From Clostridia bacterium (GTDB taxonomy: Bacteria > Bacillota > Clostridia > Christensenellales > Aristaeellaceae): 64,000 bases of DNA. The stretch covers positions 1 through 64,000 of the forward strand of contig JAFUDS010000026.1 in the NCBI GenBank assembly GCA_017464305.1. The letters are read 5' to 3'. The notes beneath the pieces were generated by a model, which searched no databases, was not told where the DNA came from, and saw nothing but the letters and a program-made list of their open reading frames with translations. Positions 19,870-39,231 of the stretch are shown piece by piece. Numbering within the stretch: the stretch's first letter is position 1; each line of letters starts with the position of its first letter. A program made the translations under genes and the position numbers.

Positions 19870-21096
19870 TTATTTCAGCACGATGCGGCAATAGCCCTTT
19901 TTACCTTTTCTCAGCAGCAGGCCTTCGCCGATTTGATCCGCGGCGATCTGGGCGGCGACGTCGGTTACCTTTTTCCCCTCCAGGGAAACGGCGTTTTGCT
20001 CAATCTGTTTGCGGGCGTCGGACTGGGATTTGCACAGGCCGGAGCGCACCAGCAGGGTGGAAACCCGGCCGTCCGCTGCCAGCTCCTCCGCCGTGACCTC
20101 CAGGGAAGGGACACTGGCGGCGTCTGCGCCGCCGGCAAACAGGGCGGCGGCGGCGGCGGCGGCCTTTTCCGCCTCCTCCTCGCCATGGACCAGCTTGGTC
20201 ACCTCATAGGCCAGGACCTTCTTCGCCTCGTTGATCTCTGCCCCTTCCAGCGCGCCCAGGCGGCGCACCTCGTCCATGGGCAGGAAGGTCAGCAGCGCCA
20301 GGCACTTCTGCACATCCTGATCATCCACATTCCGCCAGTACTGGTAGAAATCGTAGGGGCTGGTCTTGACGGGATCCAGCCACAGGGCGCCGGCCTCCGT
20401 TTTACCCATCTTGCGGCCATCGTGGGTCAGCAGCAGCTGGAAGGTGCAGGCAAAAGCCTTTTCACACAGCTTGCGCCGCACCAGATCCGCGCCGCCCAGC
20501 ATGTTGGACCACTGGTCGTTGCCGCCCATCTCCAGCCGGCAGCCATAGCGCTGGAACAGCTCCAGGAAGTCATAGCTCTGCATCAGCATATAGGTGAACT
20601 CCAGGAAGGACAGGCCGTTTTCCGTGGCCATGCGGGCCTTGTAGCAATCCGCCGTCAGCATGCGGTTGACGTTGAACATGGATCCGATATCCCGCATGAA
20701 TTCGATGAAATTCAGATGACGCAGCCAGTCGCCATTGTTGACGATGATGGCCTGGTCCGGCCCGAAATCCAGAAAACGGGACATCTGCGCCTTGATGCAT
20801 TCCACGTTGTGATCGATGGTCTCCACCGTCATCATCTTCCGCATGTCCGTTTTCCCGGAGGGATCGCCAATCATAGCGGTGCCTCCGCCCATGAGGGCGA
20901 TGGGCTTATGGCCGGCCCTTTGCATATGGGCCATGGCCATGATCGGAATGTAATGGCCAATATGCAGGCTGTCGGCGGTGGGATCGAAGCCGACATAGAA
21001 GGTGGTAGGGGATTTCAGCTGCTCATACAGCTCGTCCTCAAAGGTGGTCTGGGCGATGAAGCCCCGCTCCTTTAATATATCCAGAATGTGTTCCAT
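19870..21096 (-). CDS. tyrS: Tyrosyl-tRNA synthetase
   Basis: TyrS charges tRNA-Tyr. This 408-residue class I synthetase has the HIGH motif as LHIGHY (about residue 45), the KMSKS loop as KMGKTEAG, tyrosine-pocket residues around [10 protein letters not shown], and a C-terminal S4 RNA-binding domain ([20 protein letters not shown]). Its start ATG has AGGAGG upstream. It lies 16 bases after the aminotransferase gene, downstream of a T-box leader whose specifier reads TAC (Tyr). Confidence 0.97.
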
Positions 21097-21112: not shown

Positions 21113-22288
21113 TTATTTTTGAATGAGATCCTTCAAAATCGACATGCCCTGATCGATCTGGGCCAGGGTACTGCCGGAGAAGTTTAACCGCAGGGTGTTT
21201 TCATGGCCGCCATCGGCAAAGAAATGGGTGCCGGGAACGAAGGCGACCTTTTGTTCAATGGCCTGGTTCAGCAGCTCTTTGGCGTTGAGGCCCTCCGGCA
21301 GCTCCACCCAGATAAAGAGACCGCCTTCCGGCCGGGTATAGGATACGCCGGCAGGGAAGGACGCCAGATGGGAAAGCATGGCGTCGCACTGCTGGGCATA
21401 GTCAGCGGAGATGCGGCGGATATGATCCGTCAAGAGATCCTGCCGTAGGAATTGATCCACGATGGCCTGGGAAAGATTCGCCGTGTGCACATCGGAGGAC
21501 TGTTTCCCAATCGTGCATTTCCGCAGAATCCCCGCATCCCCCGCCATGTAGCCGACCCGCAGGCCGGGGGAGATGACCTTGGAGAAGCTGCCCAGGAAGA
21601 CGACCCAGCCATTTTCGTCGAAGGACTTAATGGTGGGCAGCTCCTGGCCCCGATAGCGCAGATCCCGATAAGGGTCATCCTCCGCCACCACGACGCCATA
21701 CTGATTGGCCAGCTCCGCCACCCGCTTTCTCCGGGGCAGGGACAGCGTCCGCCCGGTGGGGTTCTGGAAGGTGGGAATGGTGTAAATCAGCTTCGGCTTC
21801 GTTTCCTGAATCAGGCGCTCCAGATGATCCGGATCCAGCCCCTCCTCATCGCTGTTTACGGGCACCAGCTCCGCCTCATAGAGCTTCATGCATTGCAGAT
21901 TGCCTAGAAAGGATGGATTCTCCACAATGATGCGGTCTCCAGGGTTGATGAGGGCCTTGCAGAGCAGATCCATGGCCTGGGTGGAGCCTGTTACCGGCAG
22001 CACCGAGGGGGGATCCAGCTGCAGATGGGATTTGACATAGGCGCGAAGGCTTTCCACAAAGGCGGGATAGCCCTCCGTGGCGCCATATTGCAAAATGGCC
22101 TTGCCATTGTCCTGCAGCACCTGCTTGGCGATGGGGGCGACGATGTCGTCCGGCAGGGCGGCCAGGGAAGGATTTCCCCCGGCGAAGGAAATCATGCCCG
22201 GCTGGGCGATGACCTTGAAGATCTCTCGAATGGCGCTGCCGGATACATGATCAAAACGGGACGCATAAGAAAGGGATGATAAATCCAT
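21113..22288 (-). CDS. PLP-dependent aminotransferase (2-aminoadipate/aromatic type, fold I)
   Basis: The 391-residue class I/II aminotransferase shows the family start [26 protein letters not shown], the GATEGYPAF block, the cofactor-binding NPTGRTLS, and the PLP lysine in [16 protein letters not shown]. It resembles the LysN/aromatic aminotransferase-like family without the GntR domain of MocR proteins. The ATG at 22288 has AAAGGAGG upstream; the longer frame to 22366 runs into the T-box terminator. Because it shares a Tyr-type T-box with tyrS, a tyrosine or phenylalanine transaminase role is likely but inferred. Confidence 0.9.
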
Positions 22289-22309
22289 CCTGCTCAACCT
22301 CCTTTTGCA

Positions 22310-22560
22310 CAAAACAAAAATCCTCCTCCGCCCGGAAGGCGGGGAGGACCGCGGTACCACTTCCATTCAGCCACAGACAGCCTGAAAACAACCCTGCGGA
22401 AACAGGCACCGTGACTCTTATCAAAACGCTGTAACCGGCGCACCGGCCCGATCTTACTGGGGAGGGGAACCTCCTTTTCTGGGCGGGAGCTCAGGGGCGT
22501 ATATCCGGCACCTTCCGAACCCCTCACACCAAACGGGGCCTCTCTGGACGGGAGAAAAAC
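22310..22560 (-). promoter_or_regulatory. T-box riboswitch, probable Tyr specifier (TAC)
   Basis: On the minus strand the T-box sequence GTGGTACCGCGG (22349-22360) is followed by a terminator stem (CCTCC...GGAGG class) and TTTTTGTTTT. Stem I begins with AGAGAG near 22545 and has an apical loop with TGGTGTGA. Aligning its 3' side with the second T-box in this window at CCTGAG places the triplet TAC (22499-22501) in the specifier position. The variable T-box base is T, matching a tRNA with discriminator A. It should turn on the aminotransferase-tyrS-yigZ operon when tRNA-Tyr is uncharged. Confidence 0.85.
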
Positions 22561-22590
22561 CGGCTTCTTCCCTTCATCGCGACAGCAATG

Positions 22591-34958: not shown

Positions 34959-37472
34959 TTATTGTTTTCCCTTTGCGGTATCGATGCCCGCGGCATTCTG
35001 CAGGTTCAGCTGCTCAATGGCCGCCTCCCGCATCTTGTATTTCAGCACCTTGCCCGCGGCGTTCATGGGGAAGGAGGACACGAAGTCGATGTATTGGGGG
35101 ACCTTATGCCGGGCCATGTGGCTGGCGATATATTCCGTCATCTCCTCCTTGGAAACCTGCTGTCCCTCCTTCAGGATGATACAGGCCATGACCGCTTCGC
35201 CATACTTCTTATCGGGCACGCCGATGACCTGGACATCCTCCACCGCGGGATGGGTGTAAATAAATTCCTCAATCTCCTTGGGATAGATATTTTCTCCGCC
35301 GCGGATGATCATATCCTTCAGCCGCCCGGTGATGACATAGGTGCCATCCGGATTTCGCCTGGCCAGGTCCCCGGAATGGAGCCAGCCCTCCGCGTCGATG
35401 GTGGCAGCGGTGGCCTCCGGCATTTTGTAATATCCCTTCATAATGTTATAGCCCCGGGAGCAGAACTCGCCGTCTATGCCATCCGGCAGGATATTTCCGG
35501 TCTCGGGATCCACCACCTTGCATTCCACATTGGGAAAATCATATCCGACCGTTTCCGTCCGGAGCATCAGATCATCCTGCCAGGCGGACATGGTGCTGCC
35601 GGGGGAGGATTCCGTCTGTCCATAGACGCTGACGATGCCTTGCATGTTCATTTCGTCCGGCTGGGCGGCCCGGCGCATAAGCTCCGGCGGGCAGCCGGCG
35701 CCAGCCATGATGCCTGTCCGCATATGGGAGAAATCCGTTTTGCGATAATCCTCATGGTTAAACATGGCGATGAACATGGTGGGCACGCCGTTGAAGCAGG
35801 TGATCCGCTCCTGATGGATGCAGGCCAGGGAGTTCTTCGCGGAGAAATAAGGCATGGGGCACAGGGTAGCGCCATGGGTCATGGACGAGGTCATGGAAAG
35901 CACCATGCCAAAGCAATGGAACATGGGCACCTGAATCATCATCCGATCCGCCGTGGAAAGCCCCATGCGATCACCGATGCACTTGCCATTATTCACCACA
36001 TTATAGTGCGTCAGCATGACGCCCTTGGGGAAACCGGTGGTGCCAGAGGTGTACTGCATATTGCACACATCGTCCACCTTGACCCGGGAGGCGTATTCCC
36101 GCAGCTTTTCCTCCGGCACGCTGTCCGCCCGCTCCATGGCCTCGTCGAAGGTGAGGCAGCCGGGCTGACGGAAGCCCACGGTGATCACATTCCGCAGGAA
36201 GGGCAGCTTCTTGCTGTGCAGAGGTTCGCCGGGCTTGGTGGCGGCGATCTCTGGGCACAGCTCGTTGATGATGGCCCGATAATCGCTGTCCAGGCAGGAT
36301 TCGATCATCACCAGGGTATGGGTATCGCTCTGGCGCAGCAGATACTCCGCCTCGTGAATCTTATAGGCGGTGTTCACCGTCACCAGCACCGCGCCGATCT
36401 TGGTGGCGGCCCAGAAGGTAATGTACCAGGCGGGGACGTTGGTAGCCCAGATGGCGACCTTGCTGCCGGGGCGGACGCCCAGGGAGATCAGGGCCCGGGC
36501 AAAGTTATCCACATCGTCCCGGAATTCGGCATAGGTGCGGGTATAATCCAGGGTGGTGTACCGGAAGGCGTACTGGTCCGGGAATTCCGCCACCACCTGA
36601 TCCAGCACCTGGGGGAAGGTCAGGTCGATGAGCTCATCCTTCTTCCAAATATACCGGCCGGTGCCATCATGGTTGGGATAAAGCACCTTGCGCTTTCCCC
36701 GGGGATTGTCGAAGCGATTCATATAGTTGATGAAATAGGGCAGAATCACGTCCCGCAGCGGAAGATCCGGCATCCAGTCTGGCTTCCATTCCATGGACAG
36801 GAAGCCATCATAGTCAATGGAGCTCAGGGCCCGCATCAGCTCCTGGATGGGCAGGGTTCCTTCGCCGATCAGGTTATACTCCCCGGCGTCATCAGAATCC
36901 CGCAGATGGACATGGCGCACATAGGCGCCCAGGTTTCGGATAGTGGCGTCCGGGGTTTCCTTGAAATCCCGGTATGGATGGTGCATATCCCAAAGGGCCG
37001 CCAGCTCATCCCGGGCGTAATCATCCAGCAGGTTGCGCAGCCGCTCCGTGTTGGCATAAATCCCTACGGTTTTGATCAGCAGGGTTACCTCCAGGCCGGA
37101 AAGCAGGGGCAGAATGCGATCCAAATTCCGGTGTACCGCCCCCTCATCCTCCTTCAGGGCGCAGACAGCCACATAGGGCGCCCGCAAGGCGACGGCGGAC
37201 TGAAACAGCTGCTGGAATTCCTCCAGATCCGCCTCGTCCTTGCTCAGGTCGATGGGCGTATCCAGGCAGGAAAGGGACAGGTGCTTCTCCTTCAGCCCAC
37301 GCAGGGTTTCATTCAAATGATACTGGTGGAAGGGGCCGCTGCGATCCGTCAGAGCAGGGGTACGGCTCAGGTTATAGAGCTCGATGCCCTGAAAATGGTA
37401 TTCCTCCGCGTCGCGAATCTGCTGATCCCAGGGGAGATCATTCCAGCCCCGGGTAGAAAATGAAAGATTCAT
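34959..37472 (-). CDS. Fusion: xylose-isomerase-like TIM barrel plus acyl-CoA ligase
   Basis: The 837-residue protein joins two enzymes. Residues 1 to about 265 are an AP-endonuclease-2/sugar isomerase-type TIM barrel with metal-site segments ALWDMHHPYRDF and HVHLRDSD and a glycine-rich GEGTLPIQELM. From about residue 285 a full AMP-forming acyl-CoA synthetase follows, with P-loop YTSGTTGFPKGV near residue 475, YGQTESSPG, GWLHSGDLARR and the catalytic lysine in AAGKVLKYKMRE. The join is continuous, with no frameshift. It overlaps the upstream gene by four bases and lies in the Leu T-box operon. Substrate unknown; a branched-chain acid or hydroxy acid would suit the operon but is inferred. Confidence 0.88.
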   Translation of the reverse strand: MNLSFSTRGWNDLPWDQQIRDAEEYHFQGIELYNLSRTPALTDRSGPFHQYHLNETLRGLKEKHLSLSCLDTPIDLSKDEADLEEFQQLFQSAVALRAPYVAVCALKEDEGAVHRNLDRILPLLSGLEVTLLIKTVGIYANTERLRNLLDDYARDELAALWDMHHPYRDFKETPDATIRNLGAYVRHVHLRDSDDAGEYNLIGEGTLPIQELMRALSSIDYDGFLSMEWKPDWMPDLPLRDVILPYFINYMNRFDNPRGKRKVLYPNHDGTGRYIWKKDELIDLTFPQVLDQVVAEFPDQYAFRYTTLDYTRTYAEFRDDVDNFARALISLGVRPGSKVAIWATNVPAWYITFWAATKIGAVLVTVNTAYKIHEAEYLLRQSDTHTLVMIESCLDSDYRAIINELCPEIAATKPGEPLHSKKLPFLRNVITVGFRQPGCLTFDEAMERADSVPEEKLREYASRVKVDDVCNMQYTSGTTGFPKGVMLTHYNVVNNGKCIGDRMGLSTADRMMIQVPMFHCFGMVLSMTSSMTHGATLCPMPYFSAKNSLACIHQERITCFNGVPTMFIAMFNHEDYRKTDFSHMRTGIMAGAGCPPELMRRAAQPDEMNMQGIVSVYGQTESSPGSTMSAWQDDLMLRTETVGYDFPNVECKVVDPETGNILPDGIDGEFCSRGYNIMKGYYKMPEATAATIDAEGWLHSGDLARRNPDGTYVITGRLKDMIIRGGENIYPKEIEEFIYTHPAVEDVQVIGVPDKKYGEAVMACIILKEGQQVSKEEMTEYIASHMARHKVPQYIDFVSSFPMNAAGKVLKYKMREAAIEQLNLQNAAGIDTAKGKQ

Positions 37473-38881
37473 TCCTCTTCCTCCTCATACACAATCTTAT
37501 TCAGCGCGTTGACATATGCCATGATGCTGGCGCCCACGATATCCGTGGACAGGCCGCGGCCGGAATAGAGCTTGCCTTCGGAGCGCAGGCGCACCACAGT
37601 TTCGCCCATGGCTTCCCGGCCTTCGGTGATGGCCTGAATCTGGAATTCATCCAGCTCAAAGTGCCGGCCAATGGCTTTTTCCAGGGCCAGGAAGGCCGCG
37701 TCGATGACGCCGTCTCCGGCGGAAATGCCGTCCAGCGTCTGGTCATGATACTTCAATTTCATATGGGCCATGGCGCCGATGTCGTTGCCAGAATTGAAGA
37801 CATAGCTGATGACCTGATAGGTGGGGGGCACCTGCATGGCCTCGGTGGCCACCAGGGCGTCCAGCTCCTTCAGGCTGATGCTTCCCTTCTTTTCCGCCAC
37901 ATTCAGGAAGGCCTGGTAGACCTTTTCCTGATCCTCCGTAGAAAGCAGATAGCCCAGCTGCTCCATGGAGCGAAGCACGCTCTCCTTGCTGTCATGGAAG
38001 CTGAGGCGCAGTTCCCCCTCCTGATCCTGGACGTCGGCGGCAAAGGAACGCTGGGCGGGAAGATTGGCCCGGCAGAGGGCTTCGATCTGCCCGGTAACCC
38101 GGCGGATCTCCTCCCGGCGAATCTGGCAATTCACGTCCATCTTTTCCCCCTTCAGCGCCAGTACCCGGACCACATGAGCCAGGGAGGCACAGTTGAGGGC
38201 AAAGGCGGCGGCTTTGACCTCGCGAATGCCGCAGCGAACAGATTCCACCGCGCAAGCGTCCGCCAAGCTCAGCTCGTTGGAGCAGTCAATGCCGAAAATG
38301 ACCTGTTCCGCCGCGCCAATGTCGGCCAGGATTTCTGCCAGCTCCTTGCGAAGCTCCTCCGGCAGAGAGACGCCCGCCGCTTCCTGGAAGGTAACATGGG
38401 AAGCGCCGGCGGCGATGGCCTGCTGAACCAGGGGCACCAGGAAATCCCGATCTCCGCGGAAGGCGTCTTCCGCGATCAGCTCCACCTGATCCGTATATTT
38501 CCGGCATTCGGCAATGGTTTCTACCACGCGGGCGGAGAGGGCAGCCGGCTTGAGATGAAACAGATACTCCATCTGGACGGAGCTGACGGGGACGCTGACC
38601 TGCAGCCGGGCGCCAGGGGCTTCCTTCAAGGCGTTCCAGGTCAGCTGGACGCTGTCCGCGTTCAGCTGGACGGGAACGGCAACCACCGCATGCTTCACGG
38701 CGGCGGAGATGGATTTGATCAGCAGTGGATCCACCTTTTGATTCTCAATGGCGGGCAGCTCCAGCGCGTCCACCTCCAGCCGGTCGATAAGCCGGCTCAG
38801 CTCGATTTTTTCCCGGAAGCTTAGGGGCATCTGTTTGCCGGATTGCTTGAGTGTTTTGTCTGAGATGAAAACTCTTCCCAT
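37469..38881 (-). CDS. Isopropylmalate synthase-like protein with degenerate active site and intact LeuA regulatory domain
   Basis: The 470-residue protein (ATG 38881 after GGAGGG) follows the LeuA layout: a DRE-TIM barrel (about 1-290), a linker, and a C-terminal LeuA dimer/allosteric domain (SGNDIGAMAHMKLKYHDQTL, then GRGLSTDIVGASIMAYVNALN). The catalytic signature DTTLRDGEQ is replaced by DKTLKQSGKQ. The metal-binding HCHND is DCSNE, and the NGIGERAGN loop is replaced by FALNCASLA. The SAEDATR block survives as IAEDAFR. It therefore probably does not make isopropylmalate but may still bind leucine. It lies under a T-box with a Leu-type specifier. Confidence 0.85.
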   Translation of the reverse strand: MGRVFISDKTLKQSGKQMPLSFREKIELSRLIDRLEVDALELPAIENQKVDPLLIKSISAAVKHAVVAVPVQLNADSVQLTWNALKEAPGARLQVSVPVSSVQMEYLFHLKPAALSARVVETIAECRKYTDQVELIAEDAFRGDRDFLVPLVQQAIAAGASHVTFQEAAGVSLPEELRKELAEILADIGAAEQVIFGIDCSNELSLADACAVESVRCGIREVKAAAFALNCASLAHVVRVLALKGEKMDVNCQIRREEIRRVTGQIEALCRANLPAQRSFAADVQDQEGELRLSFHDSKESVLRSMEQLGYLLSTEDQEKVYQAFLNVAEKKGSISLKELDALVATEAMQVPPTYQVISYVFNSGNDIGAMAHMKLKYHDQTLDGISAGDGVIDAAFLALEKAIGRHFELDEFQIQAITEGREAMGETVVRLRSEGKLYSGRGLSTDIVGASIMAYVNALNKIVYEEEEE

Positions 38882-38909
38882 TCTTTCTTTCCCTCCAACT
38901 GTAAAATAA

Positions 38910-39170
38910 AAATCCCTGAAGCCAAACTTGGCTACAGGGACGAAAACACAAAATTTCCGCGGTACCACCCAAATTGCCTCCTCCTCGCGGAGAAAGACCA
39001 TCTCTTGAGCTCCAACAAGCTCTCAGCCGATCACGGGGCGCCCGTGCCCCCTTACTGGCGGGAAGAAAAGGCCCGCGTTCAAAGGGCAAACTCAGGAAGC
39101 AGTCACTCTTCGCTTCGGTACCGGCTCACAGCAGCCGCCGGCTCTCTGAAACCTCCCTGAAGAGATTCCT
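38910..39170 (-). promoter_or_regulatory. T-box riboswitch, probable Leu specifier (CTG)
   Basis: The T-box sequence GGGTGGTACCGCGG (38957-38970, minus strand) precedes a terminator stem (CCCTGTAGCC/GGCTTCAGGG, 38914-38939) followed by ATTTTTATTTT. Stem I starts with AGAGAG near 39147 and has an apical loop with TGCTGTGA, matching the other T-box of the window. The triplet in the specifier position is CTG (39100-39102), a Leu codon. The variable T-box base T fits discriminator A of tRNA-Leu. Confidence 0.85.
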
Positions 39171-39202
39171 TCCATCATCGCTTTGCGTGTGAAATTGCGA
39201 GC

Positions 39203-39231
39203 ATGATAACACAGAAAAATGGAAACGTCAA
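39203..39231 (-). promoter_or_regulatory. Promoter of the Leu T-box operon
   Basis: TTGACG (39231-39226) and TATCAT (39208-39203) on the minus strand are separated by 17 bp. Confidence 0.8.

Follow-up and report, generated by a model that had tools for sequence, protein, structure and literature searches.

Why should a T-box leader with a leucine specifier control a LeuA-like gene stripped of its catalytic motifs, together with a gene fusing a sugar-isomerase-type barrel to an acyl-CoA ligase? The question is raised by an operon on the minus strand (39231 to 34959) of the 64,000-nucleotide stretch analyzed here (the window), from contig JAFUDS010000026.1 of the Clostridia bacterium assembly GCA_017464305.1. 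The original prediction saw in it an undescribed branched-chain acid or coenzyme A-linked system tuned by leucine, an idea that our survey supports and narrows to reductive carboxylation of isovalerate. We consider it probable that the operon represents the leucine arm of a system for branched-chain-acid salvage in anaerobic gut bacteria, in which leucine would be built from isovalerate. The route is named as such because the genes often found beside the operon in the loci surveyed encode 2-oxoacid:ferredoxin oxidoreductases (VOR or PFOR), a branched-chain aminotransferase (BCAT) and sister acyl-CoA ligases (XRE-ligases) under isoleucine and valine leaders.

The leader, the LeuA-like protein and the barrel-ligase fusion

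The operon consists, in order, of a promoter-like site, a T-box leader, the gene for the LeuA-like protein (pLeuA) and the barrel-ligase gene, and the span first reported for it (34959-39231) extends from the stop codon of the latter to where the promoter-like site begins. The leader (38933-39187, minus strand) scored 95.0 bits against Rfam RF00230, whose gathering score is 93, and 95.1 bits against a stem-I covariance model (R1) built from 23 Leu leaders, of which it is itself one. As originally predicted, the specifier codon is CTG (Leu), located at 39100-39102 by an alignment of 23 leaders (the window and 22 others). The conserved T-box sequence GGGTGGTACCGCGG, on the antiterminator side, lies at 38957-38970 (sequence and cmscan alignment), and an intrinsic terminator hairpin with a U-rich tail at 38912-38941 (fold -19.3 kcal/mol, z -6.27) had a stability matched by 0 of 200 shuffles; a simple terminator scan did not list this hairpin. 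The marks of RF00230 are thus all present (covariance-model match, specifier, T-box sequence and terminator), and the leader would act through the binding of uncharged tRNA-Leu and antitermination. Upstream, on the same strand, the sigma-70-like promoter (TTGACG, 17 nt, TATCAT; 39203-39231) agreed with the consensus at 10 of 12 positions, a sequence match that is no proof of function.

The first gene (37469-38881, minus strand) encodes pLeuA, a protein of 470 aa that matches PF00682 (E 3.6e-22) and, in its C-terminal part, the LeuA_dimer domain PF08502 (E 5.2e-29; 101.2 bits against a cut-off of 24.9), so that the HMGL-like fold and LeuA_dimer domain are common to it and to LeuA (TIGR00973; chains 3rmj and 3ewb). 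Unlike LeuA, it lacks the metal ligands, the catalytic Asp and the GERAGN loop, and it scores far below the LeuA cut-offs (225.6 bits against TIGR00973, whose cut-off is 598.7, and below the cut-offs of all listed NCBIfam LeuA models). In the window TLRDG has become TLKQS, HCHND has become DCSNE and the GERAGN loop is deleted; TLRDG, HxH and GERAGN are the motifs that we take to be catalytic or metal-binding in LeuA. The original prediction had named all three as missing, and the comparison with the LeuA metal site, run as a sequence alignment, likewise found the metal ligands absent.

These losses are general. Residues were counted in 73 pLeuA rows (47 from alignment A9 and 26 from A1, the window included) and compared with nine true LeuA proteins of the same family. 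The Asp of TLRDG and each His of HxH were kept in 1 of 73 rows apiece, and the GERAGN loop and another stretch rich in invariant residues were deleted in all or nearly all rows. Among positions invariant in the nine true LeuA proteins, those of the catalytic part were retained at a mean of 0.30, with 60 of 104 lost (kept in <15% of pLeuA rows), while those of the C-terminal part were retained at a mean of 0.58, with 13 of 38 lost. At the same time, new residues have become fixed in pLeuA (E33 to D in 73/73 rows, E223 to K in 68/73). A working LeuA was rejected on the strength of the lost catalytic Asp, His pair and GERAGN loop across the 73 rows. The retained LeuA_dimer domain, also part of the original prediction, suggests that pLeuA is probably a leucine sensor; binding of leucine by this domain is the weakest step of the mechanism proposed below.

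The second gene (34959-37472, minus strand; 837 aa) overlaps pLeuA by 4 nt and, as had been predicted, joins a sugar-isomerase-type barrel to an AMP-forming acyl-CoA ligase (PF01261, PF00501 and PF13193), an arrangement also present in relatives. The ligase domain (aa 276-837; 34962-36647; PF00501 and PF13193) has PRK12583 as its best-scoring model. Ten motif residues, including the C-terminal-domain Lys, were invariant in 26 of 26 rows, and with the roles that we presume for these residues the ligase looks active; from its gene context, its substrate would be isovalerate. The xylose-isomerase-like TIM barrel (aa 1-268; 36669-37472; PF01261) has a degenerate metal site. In the window, Lys takes the place of Glu as the presumed first metal ligand, as it does in 31 of 37 nearer rows, while the Asp, His and Glu of the site are kept in 33, 37 and 37 of those 37 rows, respectively; in a wider set of 26 rows the ligand positions vary, and the four-ligand set of sugar isomerases/epimerases (Glu, Asp, His, Glu) is incomplete. 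Identity to relatives was 67-91% for the ligase and 24-78% for the barrel, which, like pLeuA (35-72%), drifts far more.

The window also contains a second T-box (22332-22586, minus strand; 75.8 bits, below the Rfam gathering score) with a Tyr specifier, TAC, ahead of an aminotransferase-like ORF (21113-22366) and a TyrS-like ORF (19870-21096; gene names by eye). Because the Tyr leader precedes these ORFs, the specifier position was apparently read correctly.

Distribution of the module, its leaders and its neighbors

To survey the two genes, 40 loci were taken from 200 genomes of the same family, in which pLeuA found matches in 160 genomes at E 1e-3 and in 81 (window included, by hand count) at E <=1e-50, the remaining matches being weak, as expected of true LeuA and related synthases. 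A further 80 loci were the best 80 of at least 584 stretches of named genome contigs with a relative at E 1e-3, true LeuA included. Across the resulting 120 loci (119 distinct, as L042 and L109 are identical in sequence), the barrel was found downstream of pLeuA in 119 and the ligase in 114, with strand and gene order preserved, and in the six loci short of a ligase the contig stops before the ligase would begin. In an additional set, comprising 19 of 24 carriers found elsewhere in the order, outside this family, and one distant genome, the barrel-ligase followed pLeuA in 20 of 20 loci. The two genes are therefore regularly linked, and chance pairing was rejected since the pair and its Leu specifier recur in >100 distinct loci. 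At E <=1e-60, pLeuA occurred in 36 of 297 genomes of an order sample and in 2 of 398 of a phylum sample, the window being counted in both.

Of 121 sources (the 120 loci and the window), 103 had a detected leader ahead of pLeuA; 21 of these leaders had served as training rows of R1, and the specifier was a leucine codon in 103/103 cases (CTG 53, CTC 48, CTA 1 and CTT 1; 102 distinct). The further 20 loci gave a pLeuA leader in 15, all 15 with Leu. Among the 18 sources lacking a detected pLeuA leader, pLeuA directly follows VOR and BCAT genes in eight, six have titles naming Bacteroidota, Abditibacteriota, Eggerthellaceae or Coriobacteriaceae, and four are others.

The Leu-trained model R1 also matched 68 leaders in front of AMP-forming ligases with XRE and cupin domains, the XRE-ligases, of which 41 had an Ile specifier, 26 a Val specifier and one was misaligned (Val by eye). 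The further 20 loci added six Ile and five Val leaders, and one Val leader was assigned to another ligase match. The T-box sequence in the inspected leaders of these sister ligases is GAGTGG, so a GGGTGG pattern matched none. In a tree of 85 XRE-ligases, with the misaligned-leader protein counted as Val, a single clade (support 1.0) held all 36 Val-leader proteins and 2 of the 49 Ile-leader proteins, the other 47 Ile proteins falling outside it.

The gene neighborhoods point in the same direction. In the fetched stretches of the 120 loci we found VOR alpha in 39, ferredoxin in 39, PFOR in 26, an XRE-ligase in 50 (one at just 23% identity) and BCAT in 24 (two at 37% identity); VOR or PFOR was present at 65 loci. 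Ligase, 2-oxoacid:ferredoxin oxidoreductase and BCAT stand together in four loci (L086, L218, L228 and L229), and the L086 run reads XRE-ligase, ATPase, ferredoxin, VOR alpha-beta-gamma, BCAT, pLeuA and barrel-ligase, with VOR alpha at 541.9 bits against a VorB cut-off of 399 and BCAT likewise above its NCBIfam cut-off. The nearest NCBIfam model of the L086 XRE-ligase was MbcS (NF047394), at 443 bits against a cut-off of 850.

Several further observations concern these loci. The XRE-ligase (L086:709-2997) and its relatives are acyl-CoA ligases fused to helix-turn-helix and cupin domains under Val or Ile T-boxes, and possibly they regulate as well. A ParA/CobQ-like ATPase (PF01656; L086:3015-3692; 41 of 120 loci) regularly lies between the XRE-ligase and the VOR ferredoxin, and the L086 copy gave zero NCBIfam matches at E 1e-20. 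An amidohydrolase (PF04909; L086:11903-12721; 12 of 120 loci) follows the barrel-ligase, often ahead of PFOR. Record titles of the 80 loci from the contig scan, that is, the best of at least 584, are mostly uncultured Clostridia, many from ruminant guts; one (L147), a locus with Leu, Ile and Val leaders, bears the strain name Erysipelotrichaceae bacterium NK3D112, and others name Bacteroidota (L113, L128, L129), Eggerthellaceae (L142), Coriobacteriaceae (L140) and Abditibacteriota (L134). These last six carry the module without a detected pLeuA leader, as if transferred; mis-binned assemblies may also account for them.

Carrier and non-carrier genomes

Near-complete genomes (>=90% complete, <=5% contaminated) were divided into 38 carriers of the module and 41 non-carriers (out of about 55 that qualified), and the tests excluded the genome of the window, which is 68.6% complete. 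LeuB over cut-off was found in 1 of 38 carriers (3 if fragments are counted) versus 21 of 41 non-carriers, and true LeuA in 2 of 38 (3 of 38 counting a fragmented one) versus 22 of 41; BCAT was over cut-off in all 38 carriers. Below the cut-offs, full-length matches to the LeuA model at about 175-237 bits occurred in carriers G026, G149, G175 and G115, and matches to the LeuB model at about 250 bits in carriers G091 and G054. An XRE-ligase was present in 29 of 38 carriers versus 3 of 41 non-carriers by a line of 900 bits that was chosen post hoc at a gap between 905 and 783 bits, with G146 added because its gene is in two pieces; some XRE-ligase match at E 1e-100 occurred in 49 of 80 genomes.

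The 29 carriers with an XRE-ligase are the same 29 that have VorB, and IlvC was found in 2 of these 29 and in 7 of the 9 carriers lacking an XRE-ligase. Taken singly, VorB and IlvC did not separate carriers from non-carriers (p 0.059 each, in Fisher tests that treat genomes as independent, the carriers being partly related). In eight of the nine carriers without VorB and XRE-ligase, a PFOR gene shares the contig with pLeuA, at a distance of 2.8-3.5 kb; six of these carriers have another PFOR over cut-off elsewhere, G135 has a fragment only and G054 has no second one. The ninth, G006, has its pLeuA close to the end of a contig. From this distribution of PFOR, VOR and IlvC, two forms of the system can be distinguished: a leucine-only form with a linked PFOR, in which IlvC is usually kept, and a fuller form with VOR, in which IlvC is usually absent.

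In the window's own genus, nine near-complete relatives have VorB (9/9) and BCAT (9/9), and LeuA, LeuB and IlvC over cut-off were found in 0/9. One XRE-ligase copy in each of the nine is close to the L086 protein (71-73% identity), and six of them have a second copy at 61-62% identity, with one Val leader and one Ile leader per genome.

The proposed route, its alternatives and its precedents

Joined together, these observations suggest the following route. In leucine shortage, uncharged tRNA-Leu would pair with the CTG specifier, termination would be prevented and the operon transcribed. The ligase would convert isovalerate to isovaleryl-CoA, which VOR, or a PFOR paralogue adjoining the operon, would carboxylate with reduced ferredoxin to 4-methyl-2-oxopentanoate, and the branched-chain aminotransferase would turn the latter into leucine. 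The same route would be open to 2-methylbutyrate and isobutyrate through the sister XRE-cupin ligases with Ile and Val T-boxes, respectively. The LeuA_dimer domain of pLeuA most likely binds leucine, and pLeuA would restrain the ligase, perhaps through contact with the barrel, as feedback inhibition. We infer the substrates and the direction of flow from the specifiers and the gene context. The wider picture would be that of a catalytically dead LeuA become the leucine-sensing subunit of an isovalerate-CoA ligase and forming, with two sister ligases, a three-way, tRNA-gauged rebuilding of Leu, Ile and Val from branched volatile acids that replaces leu, and often ilv, genes in many gut anaerobes and moves between phyla; we lean slightly towards this fuller account.

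Several observations weigh against such a reading. No VOR or PFOR was found in the fetched stretch of 55 of 120 loci, and in all nine genus relatives VOR lies at a locus separate from the operon. The three nearest relatives (G026, G149 and G175) have a close copy of the Val type, but identity drops to 46-49% for the second ligase match of each, so an Ile branch is unsupported in these three; the Val-type copy of G026, moreover, gave no leader match. In the window's genome, 68.6% complete as noted, VorB, BCAT and XRE-ligase were not found, and LeuB and IlvC gave no match over cut-off; because partner genes went undetected there, the pathway is drawn from the relatives, and this incomplete genome neither supports nor refutes it. 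Missing LeuB is unspecific, 20 of 41 non-carriers also being without it, so that plain auxotrophy is possible; G115 combines the operon with LeuB and IlvC, and G048 and G120 combine it with a true LeuA. The assignment of isovalerate rests on gene context rather than on a preference predicted from the ligase pocket, and the C-terminal positions lost from pLeuA count against a leucine sensor. Finally, G057 has no pLeuA in front of its barrel-ligase (L189:799-3495), which comes directly after a leader whose specifier, by eye, is Leu; an Ile-leader XRE-ligase lies next, and a true LeuA is encoded elsewhere in this genome.

Three other explanations deserve comparison with isovalerate salvage. The ligases might feed branched acyl-CoA primers to membrane fatty acids, leucine shortage then being sensed as a failing supply of leucine-derived primer. 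That MbcS is the NCBIfam model closest to the XRE-ligases fits this idea, since MbcS, the methylbutyryl-CoA synthetase of Staphylococcus aureus, serves fatty-acid synthesis (PMC10026030). The recurrent neighbors, however, are VOR, PFOR and BCAT; no fatty-acid gene was recognized by eye among the clusters inspected, where no search was aimed at one, and carriers mostly lack LeuA and LeuB yet keep BCAT. Primer supply accordingly seems to us quite improbable. Flow could also be oxidative: VOR or PFOR would take part in fermenting leucine to isovaleryl-CoA and the ligase would run in reverse, since 2-oxoacid:ferredoxin oxidoreductases are reversible. A T-box, however, switches genes on when its amino acid runs short, the opposite of what catabolism needs, and AMP-forming ligases normally work towards acyl-CoA; we give this direction very little credence.

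The remaining alternative concerns the two unusual proteins themselves, which may be active enzymes of altered chemistry rather than regulators. Both are conserved, pLeuA has the newly fixed residues described above, and the barrel keeps its metal-site Asp, His and Glu in most of the nearer rows. Set against this are the disappearance of the LeuA metal and substrate motifs from pLeuA, the variable barrel ligands in the 26-row set, the fact that the proposed route requires no additional step, and the barrel-ligase of G057 with no pLeuA beside it. We regard altered enzymes as unlikely and retain a regulatory pLeuA within isovalerate salvage.

The chemistry proposed here has a clear precedent. 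Rumen bacteria were found to carboxylate isovalerate to leucine (Allison and co-workers 1962, 1966, as cited in PMC7356843), and the rumen route, as outlined there, is the same chemistry that we propose: isovalerate to leucine, 2-methylbutyrate to isoleucine and isobutyrate to valine. What is known of that route is its physiology and biochemistry, to which the genes described here add candidates for the enzymes, control by T-boxes and a partner derived from LeuA. MbcS prefers 2-methylbutyrate and isobutyrate and handles isovalerate poorly (PMC10026030), which fits the Ile and Val leaders on the XRE-ligases and a separate leucine ligase. The XRE-ligases differ from MbcS in their helix-turn-helix and cupin domains, in being preceded by T-boxes and in scores that stay short of the MbcS cut-off. 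A LeuA-type gene under a T-box is likewise on record, such a leader having been described upstream of leuA in Geobacter and Pelobacter (PMC2494555); there the gene is annotated as 2-isopropylmalate synthase, whereas pLeuA lacks the catalytic motifs and precedes a ligase. The same early survey (PMC2494555) found T-box specifiers to be consistent with gene functions that had been verified. Among the literature matches listed, covered by title and start of abstract, with preprints and most subscription journals outside the scope, there was no paper with these genes, the three T-boxes or a pseudo-LeuA. Within that scope, the original description of the system as undescribed holds for the genes and not for the chemistry, which has long been known (PMC7356843); the gene set, its T-box control and the pseudo-LeuA appear to be new.

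It has been recognized since the 1960s that branched volatile fatty acids serve rumen bacteria as growth factors, and the genes described here would, if the proposed route is correct, give that requirement a basis that can be read from genomes. The route would predict which gut bacteria subsist on the isovalerate, isobutyrate and 2-methylbutyrate that other organisms produce, and it would correct calls of apparent auxotrophy. For each ligase, the T-box specifier hints at the product before any assay, and pLeuA would be a clear case of a biosynthetic enzyme turned regulator.

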